Position numbers and translations under genes: made by a program
Notes under the pieces: model-generated
The model's database searches: none
What the model saw: only the letters and a program-made list of their open reading frames with translations
Told to the model about the DNA's origin: nothing
Origin: Polynucleobacter asymbioticus QLW-P1DMWA-1
Lineage (GTDB): Bacteria > Pseudomonadota > Gammaproteobacteria > Burkholderiales > Burkholderiaceae
Assembly: GCF_000016345.1 (NCBI RefSeq)
Contig: NC_009379.1
Location: 1,674,001 to 1,738,000, forward strand
DNA: 64,000 nucleotides
Direction: 5' to 3'
Shown here: piece by piece, positions 17,064-35,851 of the stretch
Layout: each line of letters opens with the position of its first letter
Position numbering within the stretch: the first letter of the stretch is position 1

Positions 17064-17517
17064 CCAGGAACTTATTTAACGAATTCAGCATGCTAATAAT
17101 CGAGGATGATGCCCATGCAAATGAAAAGAGTCCTGAAAATGCCATAAAAGCCGGAGTCAGATGCCATCCACCAGGCATTGAACTGGGGAAATCACCCAAA
17201 GTTGTATAGCTACTTGCACTCAGACGAATTGAAGTAAACCAATCAGGGGTAACTCCAACCAATAATATGGCTGCAGCCCAAATCACAATGGAAGCTAATT
17301 GAGTAAGTGCAAGTAACTGCGTACAGAGAATAAAGAAAAAGGTTGCTCGAATCATAGAGGGATTAGGACGCTGTCCAACATTCGCCCTAAAGAATCTAAT
17401 AGTCCACCCGTACGCAAAGCCATCGAATCCCAATACTATGCCAATCATAAAAATGCCGAACGCAGTTTGAGGAATTGCATTCTGAAAAACAAAATCAATG
17501 GCTGAGATGGATGACAT
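17038..17517 (-). CDS. Small membrane protein, ion-channel-like (2-TM)
   Basis: A 159-residue protein with four hydrophobic segments (about residues 15-35, 57-75, 78-93, 122-142). The segment SASSYTTLGDFPSSMPGGWHLTPAFMAFSGLFSFAW, read in two parts around residue 105-135, resembles the pore helix, filter and last helix of bacterial two-TM ion channels. However, TTLGDF stands in place of the potassium filter TxGYGD, so potassium selectivity is doubtful. It could be a membrane protein that has lost channel function. It stands alone between the hairpin region and the nitrilase gene. Confidence 0.6.
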   Translation of the reverse strand: MSSISAIDFVFQNAIPQTAFGIFMIGIVLGFDGFAYGWTIRFFRANVGQRPNPSMIRATFFFILCTQLLALTQLASIVIWAAAILLVGVTPDWFTSIRLSASSYTTLGDFPSSMPGGWHLTPAFMAFSGLFSFAWASSSIISMLNSLNKFLDAENKSTE

Positions 17518-22531: not shown

Positions 22532-22559
22532 CAAAAAAATACCACCCGAAGGTGGTATT
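22532..22559 (-). terminator. Terminator of the acid-sugar operon (CCACC-CGAA-GGTGG hairpin)
   Basis: AATACCACC (22538-22546) and GGTGGTATT (22551-22559) form a 9-bp stem with a CGAA tetraloop. The A-run 22533-22539 becomes a U-tract on the minus strand. It follows the methylglyoxal synthase-like gene stop by 27 nt. The same hairpin core recurs at 37265 and 63903. Confidence 0.85.
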
Positions 22560-22585: not shown

Positions 22586-23476
22586 TTATGCCCTCTGGGA
22601 TAGAAGGCTTAACCAACGATCTGCGCTCTTATTATCGCTATTGCAAGATGCAAAGTCAGTTACAACACGTGCCGCTCTTTCGAGAAGCTGAATATCTGCT
22701 TCATGTTGCCTTGCAACGTGGGGGTCTTCTAAAAATAGAATTCGCCCACACTTTCTATCTAGAACTAATTCTGCAATCTGGGCATCACCGCCCATGGGAC
22801 CACTTAAACACGGAGTTACCCAACCTTCTCCATCTTTGCTACCCTTAATTTGCTTAGCCAGTTCATTAAGTAATCCACCAGTCGTGCCAGTGGCATAGCG
22901 CACCTTGAAACGGTCGAGTAAATCAAAATGCTTTTCAGCTAACCTCAACATTTCTGGCTTCATTGCATCATGTGCAATTAATGCTATTCCTTGATTCTCA
23001 TAAGCAAAATATGGATCTAGATCTTTTGTCTTTTTCCCAGTCAAATTCATAGACTCAAGCTCTATCCACTCCCTTGCCCCAGCTAAAGTAGATAAAAATG
23101 GTTTGCCGTGAATGACACACTGACGCTTTAATGCAACTGCTTCAGGAAAAGCAGATGAAGGGTCGACAGGATCCATCAGGTAAATAATTGCATTCAACGC
23201 TTTATTGGGATCTGGGTCTACCACCCTTGATACTAGGCGCATCAAGCCACCATCATGACCATAAGGAAGGCGTTCGATATCAGCGTAATCAGGCAATAAA
23301 TCATAAATCTTCATCGCATCCATCGTTCTACCAACTACCGAGAAATGGGGTTTCAGAGTTTCGGTGATTGATGCCTTTGAACCGTTCAAGAGTTGAATCA
23401 GGGTGGCATCTTCAGAGTCTTGATGCGCCCTATTTGCAACTAGGCCGATTCGATAGTTTGGAACTTCATTAACCAT
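22586..23476 (-). CDS. Double-domain methylglyoxal synthase-like protein
   Basis: A 296-residue protein of two MgsA-like domains; ordinary MgsA is about 150 residues. The C-terminal domain (about 163-275) keeps E. coli catalytic landmarks: IALIAHD with His169 and Lys173, YATGTTG (Thr196/Thr198), LSGPMGGD with Asp231, Asp251 in LEDP, and His258/Asp261 in QHEAD. It should therefore form methylglyoxal and phosphate from dihydroxyacetone phosphate. The N-terminal domain (about 9-140) repeats the layout (IGLVANR, VVGRTMDA, YGHDGG, YLMDPVDP) but has lost the equivalent His and Thr residues; it may be structural or bind a ligand. Last gene of the otn operon, 17 nt after the DJ-1/PfpI gene. Assignment is from remembered motifs. 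Confidence 0.8.
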   Translation of the reverse strand: MVNEVPNYRIGLVANRAHQDSEDATLIQLLNGSKASITETLKPHFSVVGRTMDAMKIYDLLPDYADIERLPYGHDGGLMRLVSRVVDPDPNKALNAIIYLMDPVDPSSAFPEAVALKRQCVIHGKPFLSTLAGAREWIELESMNLTGKKTKDLDPYFAYENQGIALIAHDAMKPEMLRLAEKHFDLLDRFKVRYATGTTGGLLNELAKQIKGSKDGEGWVTPCLSGPMGGDAQIAELVLDRKCGRILFLEDPHVARQHEADIQLLERAARVVTDFASCNSDNKSADRWLSLLSQRA

Positions 23477-23493
23477 TACTGCGTATCACCCTA

Positions 23494-24072
23494 TTAAGTA
23501 ATTTTGGTTCCAAGCAACACTAAGAACTGTGCCAACCACTTTGGATGTGCCGGCCATGCAGGAGCAGTAACAAAATGTCCGTCGGTAATCGCATCATCAA
23601 CATTAATGTTGGCGTACTCCGCACCTGCTAACGTGACTTCAGCAGCGCAGGCAGGATAGGCGGAAATCTTTTTACCCTTAATCACATCGGCGGCAGTTAA
23701 TAACTGAGCGCCATGACAAATTGCCGCAATGGGCTTCTTAGCTTTATCAAATTCTTGAATTACCTCTAGAACCTTAGGTGTCATGCGAAGATATTCTGGC
23801 GCTCTACCGCCCGCAATCATCAGTGCATCATAGTTGGCAACTTTGACATCATCAAATGCAGCATTGAGTGTAAATAAGTGGCCTGGCTTTTCAGTGTAAG
23901 TTTGATCACCTTCAAAATCATGAATAGCCGTTTTTATGGTATCCCCAGCTTTTTTCCCAGGGCAAACTGCATGAACGGTATGCCCAACCATTTGCATTGC
24001 CTGAAAAGGCACCATTGTTTCGTAGTCTTCAGCAAAATCACCAGTTAAAAACAAAATCTTCTTGGAATTCAT
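23494..24072 (-). CDS. DJ-1/PfpI family protein (possible glyoxalase III/deglycase)
   Basis: A 192-residue DJ-1/PfpI superfamily protein. The nucleophile elbow is AAICHGAQLL (Cys near residue 119) with the following His; the acidic partner is in GDFAEDYE near residue 15. This combination supports enzymatic activity: members include glyoxalase III (methylglyoxal to lactate), deglycases and peptidases. It sits 29 nt after otnI and 17 nt before the methylglyoxal synthase-like gene in the same transcript. This suggests that it removes methylglyoxal or another reactive 2-oxoaldehyde, an inference from context. Confidence 0.85.
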   Translation of the reverse strand: MNSKKILFLTGDFAEDYETMVPFQAMQMVGHTVHAVCPGKKAGDTIKTAIHDFEGDQTYTEKPGHLFTLNAAFDDVKVANYDALMIAGGRAPEYLRMTPKVLEVIQEFDKAKKPIAAICHGAQLLTAADVIKGKKISAYPACAAEVTLAGAEYANINVDDAITDGHFVTAPAWPAHPKWLAQFLVLLGTKIT

Positions 24073-24101
24073 TTAATCCTCTTGTATGCAAACCTATTAA
24101 A

Positions 24102-24878
24102 TTACTTTGCTGCTTTAAACCAAGCCAAACCATCCTCAGTTTTTCCCTTAGGCCGATATTCACAACCTATCCAACCCTGATAACCCATCTCATCGAGCAT
24201 CTTAAAAATGAATGGGAAATTCACTTCACCATCATCCGGCTCATTTCTATTGGGAACACTGGCAATTTGAGTATGTCCAATATCGTTAAAGAACTTTTTA
24301 AATGTCATTGCCAAATCACCCTCCATAATTTGAGCATGATAAAAGTCCATCTGCACCTTCACGTTGGGTTCCCCACACTCTGCGCGAAGTTCGTGTGCTT
24401 GAGCCTGGGTATTGAGGAAGTACCCAGGCATATCGCGTGTATTGATTGGCTCAAGCAATAGATTGAGCTTGTGCTTAGCCAGTTCTTTGGCAGCAAATTT
24501 CATATTTGCGAGATAAGTCTTGCGATATAGAGCCAAATCAGAGCTTGAAGGTATTAAGCCAGCCATCATATGCACTTGAGGGGTGCCTAGAGCCAAGGCA
24601 TATTCAATTGCTTTTGTAACACCAGCTCGGAACTCATCTTCGCGACCAGGCAAAGCAGCAATGCCACGTTCCCCCGCAGCCCAATCTCCTGGAGGAAGAT
24701 TAAAAAGAATGTTCTTTAGATTATTTTCTTTTAACCACTGAGCAACCTCAGTAGGTGCATAGTCGTAGGGAAATAAAAACTCAACGGCTTCAAATCCTGC
24801 TTTTGCAGCAGCGGTAAAACGAGCTGGAAATTCATGCTCATTAAACATCATGGTCAAATTCGCAGCAAACTTTGGCAT
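24102..24878 (-). CDS. otnI: 2-oxo-tetronate isomerase (hydroxypyruvate isomerase family)
   Basis: A 258-residue TIM-barrel isomerase. FAANLTMMFNE at the N-terminus, NLPPGDWAAGERGIAA, LLLEPINTRDMPGYFLN and the final IGCEYRP are hallmarks of the Hyi/OtnI family. In acid-sugar pathways OtnI interconverts 2-oxo- and 3-oxo-tetronate; Glu and His residues in LEPIN, QMDFYHAQ and GCEY likely bind metal and substrate. The placement between otnC and the DJ-1 gene favours OtnI over hydroxypyruvate isomerase of glyoxylate metabolism. The start ATG is at 24878. Confidence 0.87.
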   Translation of the reverse strand: MPKFAANLTMMFNEHEFPARFTAAAKAGFEAVEFLFPYDYAPTEVAQWLKENNLKNILFNLPPGDWAAGERGIAALPGREDEFRAGVTKAIEYALALGTPQVHMMAGLIPSSSDLALYRKTYLANMKFAAKELAKHKLNLLLEPINTRDMPGYFLNTQAQAHELRAECGEPNVKVQMDFYHAQIMEGDLAMTFKKFFNDIGHTQIASVPNRNEPDDGEVNFPFIFKMLDEMGYQGWIGCEYRPKGKTEDGLAWFKAAK

Positions 24879-24892
24879 AGTAATACCTTTAT

Positions 24893-25570
24893 TTAAATAT
24901 CGAGGTTGAAAGTTTTCTTAAGATCTTGAATCTGCGCCTCATCTAACGGGCGTGTTTCAACACCTTTCAGGAGTAAAAATAATTTGGCTGTTTCTTCGAG
25001 CTCTTCAGCTGCATTAACCGCAGCTTCTAGAGAATTGGCAGAAACTACTGGGCCATGATTGGCTAGCAATACAGAAGAATTCTTCGCCGCTAACTTTTCA
25101 ATCACCGCAGCTAAGTCAGGATCACCGGGGCGGTGATATGGGGCCAATGGTAAACGCCCCACCTTCATCACAAAATAAGGGGTAAGCGGAGGAATACAGC
25201 TATCGTGATTGAGGCCACACATACAAGAAACGGCGGCAGAATAGGTGGAATGCAAATGCACAATACCTTTTGCCCCGCCTCTAGTGCTGTACATAGCTCT
25301 ATGTAAAAACGCTTCTTTAGAGGGCGGCAAACCACTGACAGTATTGCCATCCCAATCTAATTTTGTCAGGGTGGCTGGATCCAATCTTCCTAAAGAAGCA
25401 TTAGTTGGGGTTAATAACCAACCATCATCCAAGCGCACACTCAAATTACCGCTACTGCCAGCCGTAAGCCCTCTATCAAAAATTGACTTTCCAAACTCAA
25501 CAATTTGTTCGCGGTGTTTGGATTCTTCTGACTTGCTATTAATAGAAAACGTCATTGGATGTAATCCCAT
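24893..25570 (-). CDS. otnC: 3-oxo-tetronate 4-phosphate decarboxylase
   Basis: A 225-residue class II aldolase/adducin family protein. SGNLSVRL is the phosphate-binding loop, IVHLHSTYSAAVSC supplies the zinc His-x-His pair, and LLANHGPVV the third zinc His. In the otn pathway this enzyme decarboxylates 3-oxo-tetronate 4-phosphate to dihydroxyacetone phosphate. It overlaps the end of otnK by 19 nt, and otnI follows after 14 nt, so stoichiometric expression with the kinase is likely. An internal ATG at 25555 would shorten the overlap and cannot be excluded. Confidence 0.88.
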   Translation of the reverse strand: MGLHPMTFSINSKSEESKHREQIVEFGKSIFDRGLTAGSSGNLSVRLDDGWLLTPTNASLGRLDPATLTKLDWDGNTVSGLPPSKEAFLHRAMYSTRGGAKGIVHLHSTYSAAVSCMCGLNHDSCIPPLTPYFVMKVGRLPLAPYHRPGDPDLAAVIEKLAAKNSSVLLANHGPVVSANSLEAAVNAAEELEETAKLFLLLKGVETRPLDEAQIQDLKKTFNLDI

Positions 25571-26829
25571 GCTTCGTTAAAGAATTGAGGGCTACCAAAG
25601 TTACCCGATTTCAAGGCGAGCACTAAGGGGTCATGATTTACTTCAGTAAAAATGGCTTTAGTCCAAGGTACACCAGGGGCTATTTCAGGGCCTATTCTTA
25701 AACCAGAAATACCCAAGGCCTTGACGACTGCGCCGGAGGTTTCACCGCCAGCAACGATGAGCTGACCAACACCTAGCTTGATAAGGCCTTTAGCAATTTG
25801 CGCCAGAGCATGTTCCACCATCTCCCCAGCCTTCTCTATACCTACTTTATCTTGAATACTTTTGACAGTCTCGGGACTGGAGGTAGCGTAGATCAATACA
25901 GGGCCCTTCACAATTTTTTGAGCAACCCACTCGAGCGCCTCAGTAACGACATCCCTACCATCGACTAAGGCAAGTGGATCAACAAAATACGCTGGGGATT
26001 TCTCCTTCATTGCCCTGACTTGCTCTTGAGTGGCAACAGAGCAGCTTCCTGCAATGACGGCCTTTAAGCCGCGAACCGTCCCAAGCTTACTGGCATCACC
26101 AATAATCTTGAGGAGCCCTTTTTTTCTAAAGTTCTCCGGCAATCCCAAGGCGATCCCTGAACCCCCTGTGACTAATGGTAGGTCGGCACAAGCGGCTCCA
26201 ATACTATATAAATCAATATCAGATAAGGCATCCACTATAGAGAACTGATTGCCGTCCTTTCGCAAATCAGCAAAGCGCTTTTGAATTACTCCTGCACCAC
26301 CCTTGACCACTGAGTAGTCGGTTAAGCCAACCTTCGATTGAACCTGTTGTTGCAACACACGAACTAAATTTGAATCCGTCATCGGTGTCAGAGGATGATT
26401 GCGCATGCCAGATTCACTAAGCAGATCATCCCCAACAAATAAATGTCCTTTGTAAATACTGCGCTTATTTGCAGGAAACGCGGGGCATGCAATAGTGAAC
26501 TTCGTATCAAGTGCCTTCATTAAGGCCTCGGCCACCGGACCTATATTTCCTTTTGGGGTGGAATCAAATGTTGAGCAGTATTTAAAGAAGAATTGCTGAC
26601 ATCCTTGACTCTTTAGCCACTCTAAAGCACGCAGTGATTCCTCAATAGCCTCAGGCGCTGGGTTTGTTCTAGATTTCAATGCAATGACTACTGCATCAAC
26701 ATCGTGAGGCGCCGGTTCCGTTGGTACCCCAATCAATTGGATGGTTTTCATCCCAGACTTCACTAGCATGCCAGCTAGGTCTGTACCACCTGTGAAATCA
26801 TCTGCAATGCAACCCAATAAAACAGCCAT
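25552..26829 (-). CDS. otnK: 3-oxo-tetronate kinase (DUF1537 four-carbon acid sugar kinase)
   Basis: A 425-residue two-domain DUF1537 kinase. The substrate domain begins with LLGCIADDFTGGTDLA (DDFTG motif). FFKYCSTFDSTPKGNIGPVAEAL contains the conserved KxxST. The C-terminal ATP-binding domain has IVAGGETSGAVVKALG, the GGxT nucleotide motif. OtnK phosphorylates 3-oxo-tetronate from threonate or erythronate. The SGLRIGPEIAPGVPW stretch is typical. It lies 27 nt after ltnD. Complete otn content around it makes the OtnK assignment firmer than the DUF alone. Confidence 0.9.
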   Translation of the reverse strand: MAVLLGCIADDFTGGTDLAGMLVKSGMKTIQLIGVPTEPAPHDVDAVVIALKSRTNPAPEAIEESLRALEWLKSQGCQQFFFKYCSTFDSTPKGNIGPVAEALMKALDTKFTIACPAFPANKRSIYKGHLFVGDDLLSESGMRNHPLTPMTDSNLVRVLQQQVQSKVGLTDYSVVKGGAGVIQKRFADLRKDGNQFSIVDALSDIDLYSIGAACADLPLVTGGSGIALGLPENFRKKGLLKIIGDASKLGTVRGLKAVIAGSCSVATQEQVRAMKEKSPAYFVDPLALVDGRDVVTEALEWVAQKIVKGPVLIYATSSPETVKSIQDKVGIEKAGEMVEHALAQIAKGLIKLGVGQLIVAGGETSGAVVKALGISGLRIGPEIAPGVPWTKAIFTEVNHDPLVLALKSGNFGSPQFFNEAWDYIQ

Positions 26830-26856
26830 ATCCCAATATCTTTTCTTCTAATTAAT

Positions 26857-27756
26857 TTATTTTTTTCCCGGAAGTTCAATTCCAGGGAAAATTTTAATCA
26901 CTGCAGAGTCATCTTCTCTACCAAAACCAGCCGTAGATGCTTGCATGAACATTTGGTGTGCGGTGGAGCTCAAGGGCAGCGGAAATTTGCTGGCTCTTGC
27001 GGTATCGAGAACTAAACCTAGATCTTTAACAAAAATATCCACAGCCGAAAGCGGTGTGTAGTCTGCAGCTAAAACGTGAGCCATCCGATTCTCAAACATC
27101 CAGCTATTACCAGCGCTATTAGTAATGACTTCATATAAAGACGCAGCATCGACACCTTCACGCAACCCTAAAGCCATAGCTTCAGCAGCGGCTGCAATAT
27201 GTACACCTGCCAATAGTTGATTAATGATCTTTACCTTGCTGCCAGCTCCAGCGCTATCGCCCAGACGATACACTTTAGCCGCCATCGCATCTAATGCGCC
27301 ACCTACTTTGGCATATGCCTGCGGAGTGCCGGCGCTCATAATAGTCATCTCGCCAGACGCAGCCTTAGCAGCTCCTCCTGAGATGGGAGAATCTAAGTAC
27401 AGGATCCCCATATCATTTAAACGCTTCTCCAATCCAACGGACCAATTAGGATCCACTGTAGAGCACATCACAAAAACAGAGCCCTTCTTCATCGCATTGG
27501 CTGCGCCATTTTTACCAAACAGCACTTCTTCTGTTTGCGCAGCATTGACTACAACGCTGACTAAAATCTCGCAATGTTCGGCTACCTCTGCCGGCGACGA
27601 GCAAGCAACGCCGCCATCCTCAACAAATGTATCAGCAGCTTCTTTACGAACATCGGCTACATAAACGTTATAACCAGAACGGCGCAATGATCCAGCCATT
27701 CCTTTACCCATAGCGCCAAGACCCACAACACCAACAGCTATTCCTTGGGAACTCAT
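26857..27756 (-). CDS. ltnD: L-threonate dehydrogenase
   Basis: A 299-residue beta-hydroxyacid dehydrogenase. The NAD motif is VGLGAMGKGMA near residue 11, the substrate loop DSPISGGAAKAASGEMTIM carries the family's second signature, and the catalytic Lys is in VKIINQLLAG. LtnD oxidises L-threonate to 2-oxo-tetronate using NAD. Family members include 3-hydroxyisobutyrate and tartronate semialdehyde dehydrogenases, but placement next to otnK, otnC and otnI supports threonate. It follows the MFS transporter after 66 nt. Confidence 0.88.
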   Translation of the reverse strand: MSSQGIAVGVVGLGAMGKGMAGSLRRSGYNVYVADVRKEAADTFVEDGGVACSSPAEVAEHCEILVSVVVNAAQTEEVLFGKNGAANAMKKGSVFVMCSTVDPNWSVGLEKRLNDMGILYLDSPISGGAAKAASGEMTIMSAGTPQAYAKVGGALDAMAAKVYRLGDSAGAGSKVKIINQLLAGVHIAAAAEAMALGLREGVDAASLYEVITNSAGNSWMFENRMAHVLAADYTPLSAVDIFVKDLGLVLDTARASKFPLPLSSTAHQMFMQASTAGFGREDDSAVIKIFPGIELPGKK

Positions 27757-27822
27757 TTTCTGACCTTTTAAATAAAAAGTGCCACCGCCGTGATGGCAGA
27801 TGGCACTAAATCTAGTGATTGC

Positions 27823-29124
27823 TTATTTATTAACTAACTTCGCCGGGAATTTCAATACTGCAAATGACCCAATTACCAGCACGCCAGAAATTACGTAAAG
27901 ACCGATATTGGAAGAGCCTGTCGCATCCTTAATAGCACCAATTAAGAATGGTGCTGCGAAGCCCGAGAGATTTCCAACAGAATTAATTGCGGCAATACCT
28001 GCAGCAGCTGAAGCACCGGCCAAGAAAGAGGTAGGCAATGCCCAGAACAATGGAGTAGCAGAGAGCACTCCAGCTGCTGCCAAAGTTAAGAAGGCAACTG
28101 CAATCTCGGTATTTGTTGTGCCCGCAAGCGCACTACCAGTAAGACCGATCACGCCCATATACATAGGAACAACTAAATGCCAGCGGCGTTCACGGGTTTT
28201 ATCGGATCTGCGACCAAAGAAGATCATGGAGATCACTGCCGCTCCGTATGGGATTGCAGTAAACAAACCAATATTTAAGACGCCTTTAATTCCTGCGGTT
28301 TTGATCAAAGTTGGGAGGAAGAAAGTTAATCCATACTGACCCATCACGATACAGAAATACACCACGATACCAAGCCAGAGGCGGCCATCTTTAAGGATTG
28401 CACCAAAGGAGCCGTGATCTACTTTTTCACGTTGATCAGCCACAATATTGGCCGCAAGCATGGCCTTCTCTTCGTTATTCAACCATTTAGCATGTTTAAT
28501 GCCATCATCTAAATAGCAGAAAACTACTACAGCCAAAATGACTGCTGGAATGGCTTCAAGCACAAACATCCATTGCCAACCTGTAAGGCCGTTAACACCA
28601 GCTACAGACTCCATAATCCAACCAGATAAGGGTCCGCCAATCAAACCTGCTAACGGAATAGCAGCCATGAAGATTGAAACAATCTTTGAACGGCGTGCCG
28701 ATGGAAACCAATATGTGAGATACAAAATGATGCCCGGGAAAAATCCAGCTTCAGCTAAGCCCAATAAAAAACGCATTACATAAAAGCTGGTGGGAGTACT
28801 TACAAACATACAAGCACCTGAAATTGCCGCCCAGGTAACCATGATTCGAGCAATCCACACTCGTGCGCCCACTCTATGCAAGATGATGTTACTGGGAACT
28901 TCAAAGATAAAGTAGCCGAAGAAGAATACGCCAGCACCGAAGCCATATACAGCTTCGCTAAACCCTAAGTCAGTCAGCATTTGTAATTTTGCAAAGCCCA
29001 CGTTGACTCGATCTAAGTAAGCAACGATGTAACAGATCATCAGCAGCGGCATGATGCGCCATGCGACTTTCTTATAAGTTAAATCCTCAAAAGCACTCGG
29101 GGTGCCCATGCTTGTAGCAGTCAT
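27823..29124 (-). CDS. MFS transporter (ACS family), probable acid-sugar importer
   Basis: A 433-residue twelve-helix major facilitator of the anion:cation symporter family (galactonate/tartrate/hexuronate type). YIVAYLDRVNVGFAKLQM is the first-helix hallmark (DRxN), VGARVWIARIMVTWA the loop 2-3 region, and LGLAEAGFFPG the helix-4 region with the conserved Glu. It is the first gene of the otn operon and is adjacent to the operator repeats at 29178, so it probably brings threonate/erythronate into the cell. The substrate is inferred from context only. Confidence 0.88.
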   Translation of the reverse strand: MTATSMGTPSAFEDLTYKKVAWRIMPLLMICYIVAYLDRVNVGFAKLQMLTDLGFSEAVYGFGAGVFFFGYFIFEVPSNIILHRVGARVWIARIMVTWAAISGACMFVSTPTSFYVMRFLLGLAEAGFFPGIILYLTYWFPSARRSKIVSIFMAAIPLAGLIGGPLSGWIMESVAGVNGLTGWQWMFVLEAIPAVILAVVVFCYLDDGIKHAKWLNNEEKAMLAANIVADQREKVDHGSFGAILKDGRLWLGIVVYFCIVMGQYGLTFFLPTLIKTAGIKGVLNIGLFTAIPYGAAVISMIFFGRRSDKTRERRWHLVVPMYMGVIGLTGSALAGTTNTEIAVAFLTLAAAGVLSATPLFWALPTSFLAGASAAAGIAAINSVGNLSGFAAPFLIGAIKDATGSSNIGLYVISGVLVIGSFAVLKFPAKLVNK

Positions 29125-29177
29125 TACCGTCTCCCTCTAAAGCTAAATTGGATTAGCATTTAATTTTTTTAATAAAA

Positions 29178-29198
29178 TATACAACTTTTATACAACTT
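29178..29198. promoter_or_regulatory. Direct repeat of TATACAACTT, probable GntR operator
   Basis: Two exact copies of TATACAACTT (29178-29187 and 29189-29198) lie 54 nt before the MFS gene. An exact reverse complement occurs at 29265-29274 before the divergent regulator gene. Three copies in a 200-bp intergenic region point to an operator set, most simply for the FadR-type regulator itself. Confidence 0.6.
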
Positions 29199-29264
29199 AC
29201 TAATAGCCATGCTAATCACAAAAAATATAGGAGTCAATGATTTAGATCTAGCTTTTACCCTAAT

Positions 29265-29277
29265 AAGTTGTATACTT
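29265..29277. promoter_or_regulatory. Inverted operator copy AAGTTGTATACTT
   Basis: AAGT-TGTAT-ACTT contains the symmetric core GTATAC and the reverse complement of the 10-mer at 29178. A looser copy, TAGACAACT, follows at 29292-29300, just before the gntR start. It probably serves autoregulation. Confidence 0.5.
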
Positions 29278-29316
29278 TTTATGATTTTTAGTAGACAACT
29301 ATCCATTTAAACGCTC

Positions 29317-30117
29317 ATGAGTCAATTTCTAAAACTGGCAGATGTAGAGAATAAGAAGACCCACTTCTCTGCGGGAAATCTTGGGACGCGGATTGCAAAC
29401 ACCCTACTAAATCAATTTCATGCGGATAACTTAAATCCCAATACCCGCCTTCCCTCTGAGTCAGTGATTGCTAAGCATTTCAAAGTCAGCAGAACAGTAG
29501 TACGAGAGGCGATTGCAATACTGAAGAAAGATGAGATTTTGCAATCACGTAAAGGTAGCGGCACCTTTATTGGCGAAAAATTCAAGCCTAATCCTGAGTT
29601 GGTAAATGAAGTCGCAGAACAATCGGTTCATGCTCTGCAAAATATTATTGAAGTCAGGCGCGGTGTTGAATCTGAAATTGCCGCGTTGGCAGCAATTCGC
29701 CGCACACCAGGACAACTTTCAGATATTGAAGAAGCATTAAGAAAAATTAAAAAGGTGACTGACGCTGGCCAAAATGGTGTCGAAGAAGATGTCCGTTTTC
29801 ATATGCTGATAGCGCAAGCTACCGGAAATCCTTATTGGCTGAAGTTTGTAGACACTTTTTCCTATTCGCTCAGAGCAGCAACTAGTGTTACTCGAGCAAA
29901 TGAAGACCGAAGGTTAGATTTTGCACAACAAGTACAAGAAGAACATGAAGCGATTGTTGCTGCCATTGCCTCGGGCGATGCCGATCAAGCACGTCTAGCT
30001 GCCAGTATCCACATGATTAACGCAGCGGAGAGGCTGAAGCTGGCCGACAGAAGCTTCTGGAAAGAGGAGGGTAGCGCCTTAGCCAGAGATATCGTGGGTA
30101 ACACCCCACACGATTAA
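29317..30117 (+). CDS. FadR/GntR-family transcriptional regulator of the acid-sugar operon
   Basis: A 266-residue GntR regulator of the FadR subfamily. The winged helix-turn-helix spans about residues 25-90 (LPSESVIAKHFKVSRTVVREAIAILKKD, then SRKGSGTF as the wing). The C-terminal FCD domain follows, with EVRRGVESEIAALAA, a metal-binding EDVRFHMLIAQATGN segment, and a last His pattern in EEHEAIVAAI. It is divergent from the MFS-ltnD-otn operon and convergent with denD, with stop codons overlapping. It most likely senses a pathway acid or phosphate ester. Effector is not deducible. Confidence 0.9.
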   Translation: MSQFLKLADVENKKTHFSAGNLGTRIANTLLNQFHADNLNPNTRLPSESVIAKHFKVSRTVVREAIAILKKDEILQSRKGSGTFIGEKFKPNPELVNEVAEQSVHALQNIIEVRRGVESEIAALAAIRRTPGQLSDIEEALRKIKKVTDAGQNGVEEDVRFHMLIAQATGNPYWLKFVDTFSYSLRAATSVTRANEDRRLDFAQQVQEEHEAIVAAIASGDADQARLAASIHMINAAERLKLADRSFWKEEGSALARDIVGNTPHD

Positions 30118-31094
30118 CTCTTACCTTTAAGCTCATCCTCAATATAGGCCTCAACAATACTTTGAAAATTGGGGTCAGACTTTAAACCCAATGCTTGAGC
30201 TCTGCTGGCATCCCAGGATGCAGGCCAACTTCTTACGATCGCCTCTACCTTTGGATCTGGCTCAATGGAAATGAGAGAAACAGTCTCTTCACTAGCCACT
30301 TTGTGTAGTGCTTCAATCATTTCACCAACACTTACTGAAACACCAGGAAGATTGATTGACTTATTCAAGCCCAATTTGCTTGAATCTAAGTCATGGCCAG
30401 TAATCAAAGATTCAATGGCATAAAGGGGTGATAACAACCAGATACGCAAGTCAGGTGAAACTGGGCAAATGGAAGGTTGACCATTTAAAGGCTCGCGAAT
30501 GATTCCGCTAGCAAACGAAGATGCTGCTTTATTAGCAACTCCAGGGCGAACACTAATAGTGGGTAAACGTAATACCCTGCCGTCTACAAAACCCTTGCGA
30601 GTGAAGTCATTAAGTAAAAGCTCACAGATTGCCTTTTGAGTGCCATACGATGATTGAGGGTTTAAGGCTGTTGTATCCAAAACCATCTCTGGAAGAGCTC
30701 CACCGTATACAGCTACCGAACTAGTAAAGATAATTTTGGGTTTATGCCCCGCTTTGCGGCAAGCCTCTAGCAATAGTCGTGCAGCATCCAGATTAATTCG
30801 CATTCCTAAGTCAAAGTCAGCCTCTGCTTGGCCGCTAACGATAGCGGCTAAGTGAAAGATAGATTTAATCTCTGGGGTAATCAATCCCTGAATGAGCTTA
30901 GGATCCGCAATATCTCCAGCGATCACCTTAACTCGTGAATCGCCAAAATCATTGGCCTTAACAACATCAACCAGTATGAGTTGCTCAATTTTTTGCTCGG
31001 CCCCATCCGAGTCTTTTAAAGACCCACGACTTAATAACTGATTAGCAAGTTTTTGCCCTAAAAATCCAGCTCCACCAGTAACTAATACTTTCAT
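30114..31094 (-). CDS. denD: D-erythronate dehydrogenase
   Basis: A 326-residue NAD-dependent epimerase/dehydratase-type protein. The nucleotide motif VTGGAGFLGQKLA begins near residue 5; ILVDVVKAND, HLAAIVSGQAEADFDLGMRIN and the YGTQK active site follow. The DenD group oxidises D-erythronate to 2-oxo-tetronate, feeding the same pathway as LtnD. It is not in the same transcript: it faces the regulator, and the TAA stops of both genes share the TTAA sequence at 30114-30117. Its own promoter region (31095-31233) shows no copy of the TATACAACTT repeat. The function is inferred from family and context. Confidence 0.85.
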   Translation of the reverse strand: MKVLVTGGAGFLGQKLANQLLSRGSLKDSDGAEQKIEQLILVDVVKANDFGDSRVKVIAGDIADPKLIQGLITPEIKSIFHLAAIVSGQAEADFDLGMRINLDAARLLLEACRKAGHKPKIIFTSSVAVYGGALPEMVLDTTALNPQSSYGTQKAICELLLNDFTRKGFVDGRVLRLPTISVRPGVANKAASSFASGIIREPLNGQPSICPVSPDLRIWLLSPLYAIESLITGHDLDSSKLGLNKSINLPGVSVSVGEMIEALHKVASEETVSLISIEPDPKVEAIVRSWPASWDASRAQALGLKSDPNFQSIVEAYIEDELKGKS

Positions 31095-34702: not shown

Positions 34703-35851
34703 ATGCAATTTGACTTTCATTCAACGCGCTCAATTCTCGTAGAAAGAGGTGGCGCTAATAATCTGGCCAAGAGAATTGCTGAGAGAGGTGGAAAATCTGC
34801 ACTGATCGTCACTGATCCAGGTGTCTTATCTGCTGGCTTACTCGATAAAGCCATGCCTCAGTTTAAGGAGATTGGTTTACCTGTACAGATTTTTTCTGAT
34901 GTTCAGGCTGACCCCCCTGTCTCAGTGATTGATGCTGCAGTGAAGGCTGCTCAAGCCTCTAAAGCTGACTACATTGTGGGCTTTGGCGGCGGTAGCTCAA
35001 TGGATGTAGCCAAATTAGTTGCCCTATTAGCACCAGGTAAAGAAAAATTAGCAGATGTCTATGGTGTAGGTATGGCTAAAGGGCCACGCTTACCTTTGAT
35101 CTTGGTCCCCACAACAGCAGGTACTGGATCTGAAGTGACCACTATTTCTATAGTTACTGTTAGCGAGAGCGAGAAGAAGGGGGTAGTTTCCCCTCAATTA
35201 CTCCCTGATGTTGCATTGCTTGATGCTGAGTTAACTTTGGGTCTTCCAGCCCATGTAACAGCAGCTACTGGAATCGATGCAATGGTTCACGCAATTGAAG
35301 CATTTACAACTAAGCGATTAAAAAATCCCGTTTCAGATTGTTTGGCCAAAGAAGCACTGCGTTTGTTAGCTGGAAATCTGCATAAGGCTGTGAAGACTGG
35401 GAATGACATTGATGCGCGTGAAAATATGTTGTTGGGTGCCTGTCTTGCAGGGATGGCATTTACTAATGCACCAGTAGCCGGTGTACACGCATTGGCTTAT
35501 CCAATTGGCGCCAGATTCCATGTTCCCCATGGACTCTCCAATTCTTTAATGCTGGGACCTGTGATGCGCTTTAATTTAGATGCTGCACACACTATGTATG
35601 CTGAACTAGGTCAAATTATCAAACCTGGTTTACAGGGCTCGACCATTGAGCAAGCCACTCAATTGGCAAGCTATCTTGGTGGCCTAGCTGGTGATCTAGG
35701 TTTGCCACAACGATTGGTTGAGGTCGGCATCACTGCAGAAGATATAGACCAGTTGGCTGCAGATGCCATGCTTCAGGCACGTTTACTACAAAATAGCCCA
35801 CGCGAAATCACATTGAATGACGCTGCAGATCTTTATAAAGAGGCTTTATGA
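34703..35851 (+). CDS. Iron-containing alcohol dehydrogenase
   Basis: A 382-residue group III alcohol dehydrogenase. The NAD-binding GFGGGSSMDVAKLVA loop is near residue 95; PTTAGTGSEVT is the second signature. The metal site is formed by DAMVHAIEAF (Asp/His) and GVHALAYPIGARFHVPHG (two His). Such enzymes reduce aldehydes or oxidise alcohols; the substrate is unknown. It follows a DsbA-family gene and overlaps the acyl-CoA thioesterase start by 4 nt, suggesting a three-gene operon. Context (thioesterase plus dehydrogenase) would fit processing of an acyl or aldehyde intermediate, without proof. Confidence 0.9.
   Translation: MQFDFHSTRSILVERGGANNLAKRIAERGGKSALIVTDPGVLSAGLLDKAMPQFKEIGLPVQIFSDVQADPPVSVIDAAVKAAQASKADYIVGFGGGSSMDVAKLVALLAPGKEKLADVYGVGMAKGPRLPLILVPTTAGTGSEVTTISIVTVSESEKKGVVSPQLLPDVALLDAELTLGLPAHVTAATGIDAMVHAIEAFTTKRLKNPVSDCLAKEALRLLAGNLHKAVKTGNDIDARENMLLGACLAGMAFTNAPVAGVHALAYPIGARFHVPHGLSNSLMLGPVMRFNLDAAHTMYAELGQIIKPGLQGSTIEQATQLASYLGGLAGDLGLPQRLVEVGITAEDIDQLAADAMLQARLLQNSPREITLNDAADLYKEAL

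Follow-up and report, generated by a model that had tools for sequence, protein, structure and literature searches.

The window, a stretch of 64,000 nucleotides (nt) from Polynucleobacter asymbioticus QLW-P1DMWA-1, carries a gene cluster for the breakdown of the acid sugars L-threonate and D-erythronate, to which a gene for a DJ-1/PfpI protein and a gene for a protein resembling methylglyoxal synthase (MGS) are attached on the minus strand. NCBIfam results are given as bit score/cut-off. The following genes were found:

22586..23476, minus strand: two-domain MGS-like protein, 296 amino acids (aa), N-terminal half about residues 1-155, synthase domain about residues 161-280; NF003559
23494..24072, minus strand: DJ-1/PfpI protein (DJ-1d group) of 192 aa containing Glu18, Cys119 and His120; TIGR01382, 192.4/139.05
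24102..24878, minus strand: otnI, 2-oxo-tetronate isomerase; 407.2/325
24893..25570, minus strand, likely start at 25555: otnC; 316/250
25552..26829, minus strand: otnK, 3-oxo-tetronate kinase; 633.2/350
26857..27756, minus strand: ltnD, L-threonate dehydrogenase; 470.7/350
27823..29124, minus strand: MFS transporter; closest model D-galactonate transporter, 348.2, under the cut-off of 395
29317..30117, plus strand: divergent GntR/FCD regulator
30114..31094, minus strand: denD, D-erythronate dehydrogenase, beyond the GntR regulator; 503.3/325

The open reading frames (ORFs) from the MFS gene to the MGS-like gene form a single run of seven, as an earlier note made from the sequence alone had described, and both their positions and the short gaps between them agree with it (MFS-ltnD 66, ltnD-otnK 27, otnC-otnI 14, otnI-DJ-1 29 and DJ-1-MGS 17 nt). 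As listed, otnK and otnC overlap by 19 nt; with the ATG seen by eye at 25555 as the start of otnC, the overlap is probably one of 4 nt (ATGA). The names ltnD, otnK, otnC and otnI given to the genes in that note are likewise borne out; with the nearby denD the set of the L-threonate/D-erythronate pathway is complete, with LtnD, DenD, OtnI, OtnK and OtnC each above its equivalog cut-off. In addition, OtnI reaches 341.8 on the hydroxypyruvate isomerase model, close to the cut-off of 353.45. The steps from L-threonate to dihydroxyacetone phosphate (DHAP) are described in PMC12540250, where Zhang et al. 2016 is cited, and by this known pathway the operon would convert both L-threonate and D-erythronate to DHAP.

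The product of the last gene is about twice as long as MgsA and matches methylglyoxal synthase within residues 161-280 only, where it scores 104.4 on the equivalog NF003559 (cut-off 84); the structure 1wo8 matches this C-terminal half as well (E 7e-16). For the whole protein no Pfam family was found at E 0.001. In E. coli MgsA the catalytic site is formed by residues which we take to be His19, Asp20, Asp71, Asp91, His98 and Asp101. Their equivalents in an alignment to 1b93 are His169, Asp170, Asp231, Asp251, His258 and Asp261, and these six are identical in 34/34 aligned sequences (34 of the 81 made up of the window protein and its best 80 relatives). Compared with MgsA, an insertion of about 10 residues is located ahead of SGPMGGD. 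The N-terminal half, for which neither a Pfam match up to E 10 nor a PDB match was found, contains many positions that are invariant among the aligned relatives; it may regulate or assemble the enzyme, which is a guess. That it represents a second, degenerate synthase domain was considered and rejected, the N-versus-C profile score being 18.2 and four column-shuffled controls scoring higher (top 20.8). Among plasmid records 60/72,556 match the protein; a single match, from Acidovorax (49.8%) and annotated as methylglyoxal synthase, spans 80% or more of the query. The predicted reaction of the 296-residue protein would be the conversion of DHAP to methylglyoxal and free phosphate.

In the PDB the DJ-1 protein comes closest to 3uk7 (E 4e-134) and to 4ofw, which is DJ-1 homolog D (DJ-1d; E 2.1e-133), both presumably Arabidopsis proteins, and it aligns to each of the two DJ-1d halves over about 190 residues. 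Matches to the chains of protein DJ-1, which we take to be human, are far weaker (E about 2e-7). Its assignment to the DJ-1d group is based on the sequence group together with Glu18, Cys119 and His120; it passes TIGR01382 and stays below TIGR01383, the model for DJ-1 family glyoxalase III (41.4 versus 131.25). The function of DJ-1 family enzymes is disputed. The catalytic Glu/Cys/His triad is described in PMC5452422, which also reports a substantial glyoxalase III activity for AtDJ-1D, and the conversion of methylglyoxal to lactate by P. aeruginosa PfpI is reported in PMC11987610. The window protein would carry out this conversion in a single, glutathione-free step.

The last two genes are therefore discussed here as a putative glutathione-independent methylglyoxal shunt that was recruited beside DHAP-producing genes, a reading to which we assign a probability of about 0.58 on the basis of sequence comparison. 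OtnC in the window and GlpD in the glycerol clusters described below would each supply DHAP to the synthase encoded in the same gene run. A wider proposal, in which DJ-1d and the two-domain synthase are a portable cassette on DHAP-making operons and provide a deliberate route replacing lower glycolysis for threonate/erythronate and for glycerol, falls slightly short of even odds. Methylglyoxal is usually regarded as an accidental toxic product or as a valve for emergencies. If the proposal is true, there would be a naturally occurring bypass, coupled to the substrate, of the reactions between glyceraldehyde-3-phosphate dehydrogenase (GAPDH) and pyruvate kinase, in which phosphate is returned at once; furthermore, a DJ-1 family enzyme would have a physiological role and this role a direct genetic test.

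Relatives of the synthase were collected from genome contigs, and the best 80 of 468 were taken as loci, 71 of which are flanked on each side by 3 kb or more; at L036 the upstream sequence is limited to 164 bases. Seven of the 80 have a DJ-1 gene directly upstream, and a single one of the 80, L002, which belongs to these seven, also has an adjoining otn gene; the other six paired loci lack an otn gene in the stretch examined. Altogether, the synthase is directly preceded by a DJ-1 gene of the same orientation at 10 distinct loci (the window, L002, L006, L007, L010, L014, L019, L024, L119 and L151), and in those from other genera otnI was not detected next to the pair. The logic of the earlier note, DHAP to methylglyoxal to lactate, stands up, supported by the synthase site residues, the kinship to DJ-1d and the occurrence of the pair behind glpD-glpK-glpF. 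Its further idea that the pair is an overflow branch belonging specifically to acid-sugar breakdown finds no support. An outcome that the note had named as speaking against it, a conserved different role of the pair outside otn clusters, is realised in part: six of the seven paired loci show no otn gene in the stretch examined, although the context in Janthinobacterium is again a DHAP-producing one. Rather than a step in the degradation of acid sugars, the pair is better viewed as a general outlet for DHAP located close to the genes that produce it.

The glycerol parallel is found in 4/40 Janthinobacterium genomes, in which the gene order is glpD-glpK-glpF-DJ1-MGS followed by a FAD/Fe-S dehydrogenase (L014, L019, L024 and L151/L157, the last two being one place). 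At L014, GlpD, GlpK and the MIP channel score above the curated cut-offs, and no terminator-like site was found on the coding strand between these cluster genes. The last gene encodes a FAD and 4Fe-4S protein of 933-958 residues, which at L014 comprises the domains FAD_binding_4, FAD-oxidase_C, Fer4 and CCG as in D-2-hydroxyacid oxidases and has glycolate oxidase, LctD and D-lactate dehydrogenase as PDB matches; it could oxidise lactate to pyruvate. The same site forms a natural series, with glpD-glpK-glpF-DJ1 in G826 and glpD-glpK-glpF alone in G816. The two-domain synthase occurs in 5/40 genomes, all of which are among the 7/40 having this glpF (Fisher p 3e-5, with no correction for kinship). 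A shorter match over the C-terminal half or slightly more is present in 38/40 genomes, three of them with stop codons there; the one short match inspected (L153) is an ORF of 129 residues with unrelated neighbours. Judged by its genes, the Janthinobacterium set could run from glycerol via DHAP, methylglyoxal and lactate to pyruvate, and the cluster is regarded as independent support for the proposed route.

Within the genus Polynucleobacter (121 genomes) the synthase is present in 2/121, a close DJ-1 in the same two, and a third genome shows a weak match of 29%. Six of the 15 other genomes with otnK were inspected. In one of them, G033, the otn operon adjoins the same EamA gene and terminates at otnI without the DJ-1/synthase pair. 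The other five (L084-L088) contain only diverged otnK, otnC and ltnD, two of them also a diverged denD, and neither otnI nor the pair was found at these loci. As side observations, otnK of G062 (L088 6765-8125) is divided between two reading frames, and in G033 (L082 12268-13143) a dehydrogenase of the tartronate-semialdehyde-reductase type is located between the MFS gene and denD in the place of the GntR regulator; this second dehydrogenase of G033 is under every curated cut-off.

The reverse arrangement is found in G094 (L002), where otnI, DJ-1 and synthase are kept as open reading frames with no otnK, otnC, ltnD or denD alongside, and a search of this genome gave no otnK match. In the gap between EamA and otnI of G094, the first about 43 codons of denD are joined in frame to the last about 10 of otnC (L002 6299-6460). 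This fusion is likely the scar of one deletion of about 6 kb, an assembly error being another possibility; the assembly is fragmented and 91% complete. In the simplest reading the deletion took the counterparts of the rest of denD, the regulator, the MFS gene, ltnD, otnK and most of otnC, so that the ancestor of G094 had an operon with the pair. Since G094 and G033 are mutually closer (otnI identity 88%, versus 83-84% to the window; EamA 81% versus 75%), the data suggest that the pair is older and was lost in G033, with transfer as a possibility. Between the window and G094 the dN/dS ratios of DJ-1 and the synthase are 0.048 and 0.038 at dS of 1.4 and 2.3, respectively, which argues for an old linkage under purifying selection.

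Recent arrival of the pair was also considered, and the base composition gave no sign of it: the GC content is 43.7% for DJ-1 and 43.5% for the synthase, the same as in the neighbours. On the DJ-1 tree (47 rows, nine paired) the pairing label needs two changes compared with a shuffled mean of 8.4; well-supported branches force at least two, and 0/200 bootstrap trees have one, with L119 placed among two unpaired rows. Even so, the data do not reject a single paired clade (p 0.284). In the tree of the synthase (91 rows, nine paired), much of which is unresolved, the label needs five changes versus a shuffled mean of 8.7. The pair of L151 is outside both trees. Pairing is thus clustered, but a single event in which the pair was transferred is not demonstrated.

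Wider sampling shows that both genes frequently occur apart. Across the order the two-domain synthase is present in 14/300 genomes (E 1e-20). In the family f8, taken as Oxalobacteraceae, it was found in 49/165 genomes (E 1e-30), one copy containing stops, and DJ-1d was found in 57/165 (E 1e-60); 32 genomes have both, and by the listed places they are adjacent in 3/32 (G654, G701 and G738). In the window's own family DJ-1d occurs in 148/249 genomes and the synthase in 1/249. When 20 DJ-1d loci of these families were inspected, 19 had no synthase match near and one had a fragment, and no glp genes were found beside DJ-1d in the same 20. The fragment (G727, L143 6645-6932) is synthase-like (48%) and follows DJ-1, the full synthase of this genome being on another contig. 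Remoter two-domain synthases (51-58%; L122-L130) from three other families adjoin unrelated genes.

Several observations weigh against the shunt. At 73/80 synthase loci the stretch examined showed no DJ-1 gene and no otn gene, DJ-1d frequently occurs where there is no synthase, and in the genus otnK is present in 16/121 genomes versus 2/121 for the pair; the operon of G033 and the trio of G094 show that either part is kept without the other, and in G832, the fifth Janthinobacterium genome with the synthase, pair and glpF are on separate contigs. The synthase domain fails the equivalog TIGR00160 (86 versus 146.9) and the Pfam MGS domain PF02142 (14.6 versus a gathering cut-off of 24.1), and because of these scores the protein is considered a diverged form of the synthase. 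The FAD/Fe-S protein of L014 is below all NCBIfam cut-offs (best GlcD, 164.6/567.9), and no lactate dehydrogenase model recognises it. In the window no lactate dehydrogenase was found among the nine cluster proteins scanned, the rest of the genome not having been searched. P. aeruginosa PfpI is a slow methylglyoxalase, with a kcat of 103 per min (PMC11987610), and in the E. coli bypass GloA and Dld are essential and HchA is dispensable (PMC10521649).

Many of these points would suit the main rival, which is rather unlikely in our view: a safety pair, in which the synthase is a general valve that releases phosphate and keeps DHAP from accumulating, its product being detoxified by DJ-1. The position in the operon would then give only co-expression at high DHAP, and little carbon would reach pyruvate thereby. 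It would need the same genes as a shunt, and the mostly unpaired synthase, G826 with DJ-1 behind glpF and no synthase, the failure to find a lactate dehydrogenase among the nine cluster proteins and the slow PfpI also speak for a valve, whereas the Janthinobacterium site, where the dehydrogenase is present with the synthase (four genomes) and absent with it (two genomes, for this site only), fits a route to pyruvate. G094 also permits otnI-DJ1-MGS to be regarded as a functional unit independent of the acid-sugar genes, OtnI isomerising another small keto acid and the other two proteins acting on related three-carbon aldehydes. The denD/otnC fusion followed by three open genes, the missing otnK match, a dN/dS of 0.04 for OtnI between G094 and G033 and the score near the hydroxypyruvate isomerase cut-off agree with such a unit, which is nevertheless improbable: OtnI is above the 2-oxo-tetronate isomerase cut-off, otnI was not found beside the pair in the loci of other genera, its divergence may be older than the deletion, and the assembly is incomplete. 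Just as little credence is given to a chance neighbourhood, in which the pair came to lie behind the other operon genes by accident and is transcribed by read-through with no functional link. Its rarity in the genus and the many synthase genes with unrelated neighbours would be explained in this way, but not the common strand with gaps of 29 and 17 nt, the linkage maintained between species at the dS values given above, and the parallel with the glycerol genes. The methylglyoxal shunt beside DHAP-producing genes is preferred. Its basis in observation comprises the genes present, the catalytic residues, the repeated pairing, the natural series with the glycerol genes and the purifying selection; from these the enzyme activities, the flux and the co-transcription are inferred.

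Hairpins and possible operator sites are present in and next to the gene run:

22538..22559, minus strand: final terminator-like hairpin; -16 kcal/mol, z -2.5, 2/200 shuffles equally good
27780..27798, minus strand: internal terminator-like hairpin with T-run in the MFS-ltnD gap; -21 kcal/mol, z -5.1, 0/200 shuffles equally good
29174..29278: possible regulator sites; direct repeat TATACAACTT at 29178 and 29189, arms of the inverted repeat 29174-29187 and 29265-29278

The earlier note had the run end in one strong hairpin; this final hairpin exists, but a stronger second one lies between MFS and ltnD. A hairpin with T-run but a different stem sequence is located in the same gap of G033 (L082 10650-10730; -26.7 kcal/mol, a value without shuffle control). 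Because both species have one there, expression of the enzyme genes may be separate from that of the transporter, and the hairpin may tune one versus the other. The gap between regulator and MFS gene contains the two copies of TATACAACTT and an inverted repeat of 14 nt, which are possible operators to which the regulator would bind. The 9-nt core of the repeat has four exact copies in the whole window, of which one is at 17199 and the others are in this gap; consequently, none is located upstream of DJ-1. Further away (34703-35851) an iron-containing alcohol dehydrogenase is encoded, which scores far under the cut-offs of its two closest models, ErcA and lactaldehyde reductase.

Neither a threonate nor a glycerol DJ1-MGS cluster was found described in the literature searched (mostly without subscription papers). 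Compared with the L-threonate/D-erythronate pathway to DHAP, the window contains the same five enzymes but adds the DJ-1d-type and two-domain synthase genes after otnI and has an internal terminator-like hairpin after the MFS gene. The C-terminal domain of the synthase-like protein has the same catalytic-site equivalents as MgsA (1b93, 1wo8); in contrast to MgsA, it carries an extra N-terminal half of about 160 residues and the insertion of about 10 residues, and TIGR00160 fails. The DJ-1 protein resembles both halves of DJ-1d (3uk7, 4ofw), but it is a single-domain protein encoded in a bacterial operon, whereas DJ-1d has two domains. PMC10521649 reports that in E. coli without tpi, grown on glycerol, glycolysis can be replaced by a route via methylglyoxal. 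The chemistry proposed here would be that of this bypass (MgsA, GloA/GloB, Dld), from DHAP to lactate to pyruvate. However, a one-step, glutathione-independent DJ-1 enzyme would stand in for GloA/GloB, and the shunt genes adjoin those which make DHAP.

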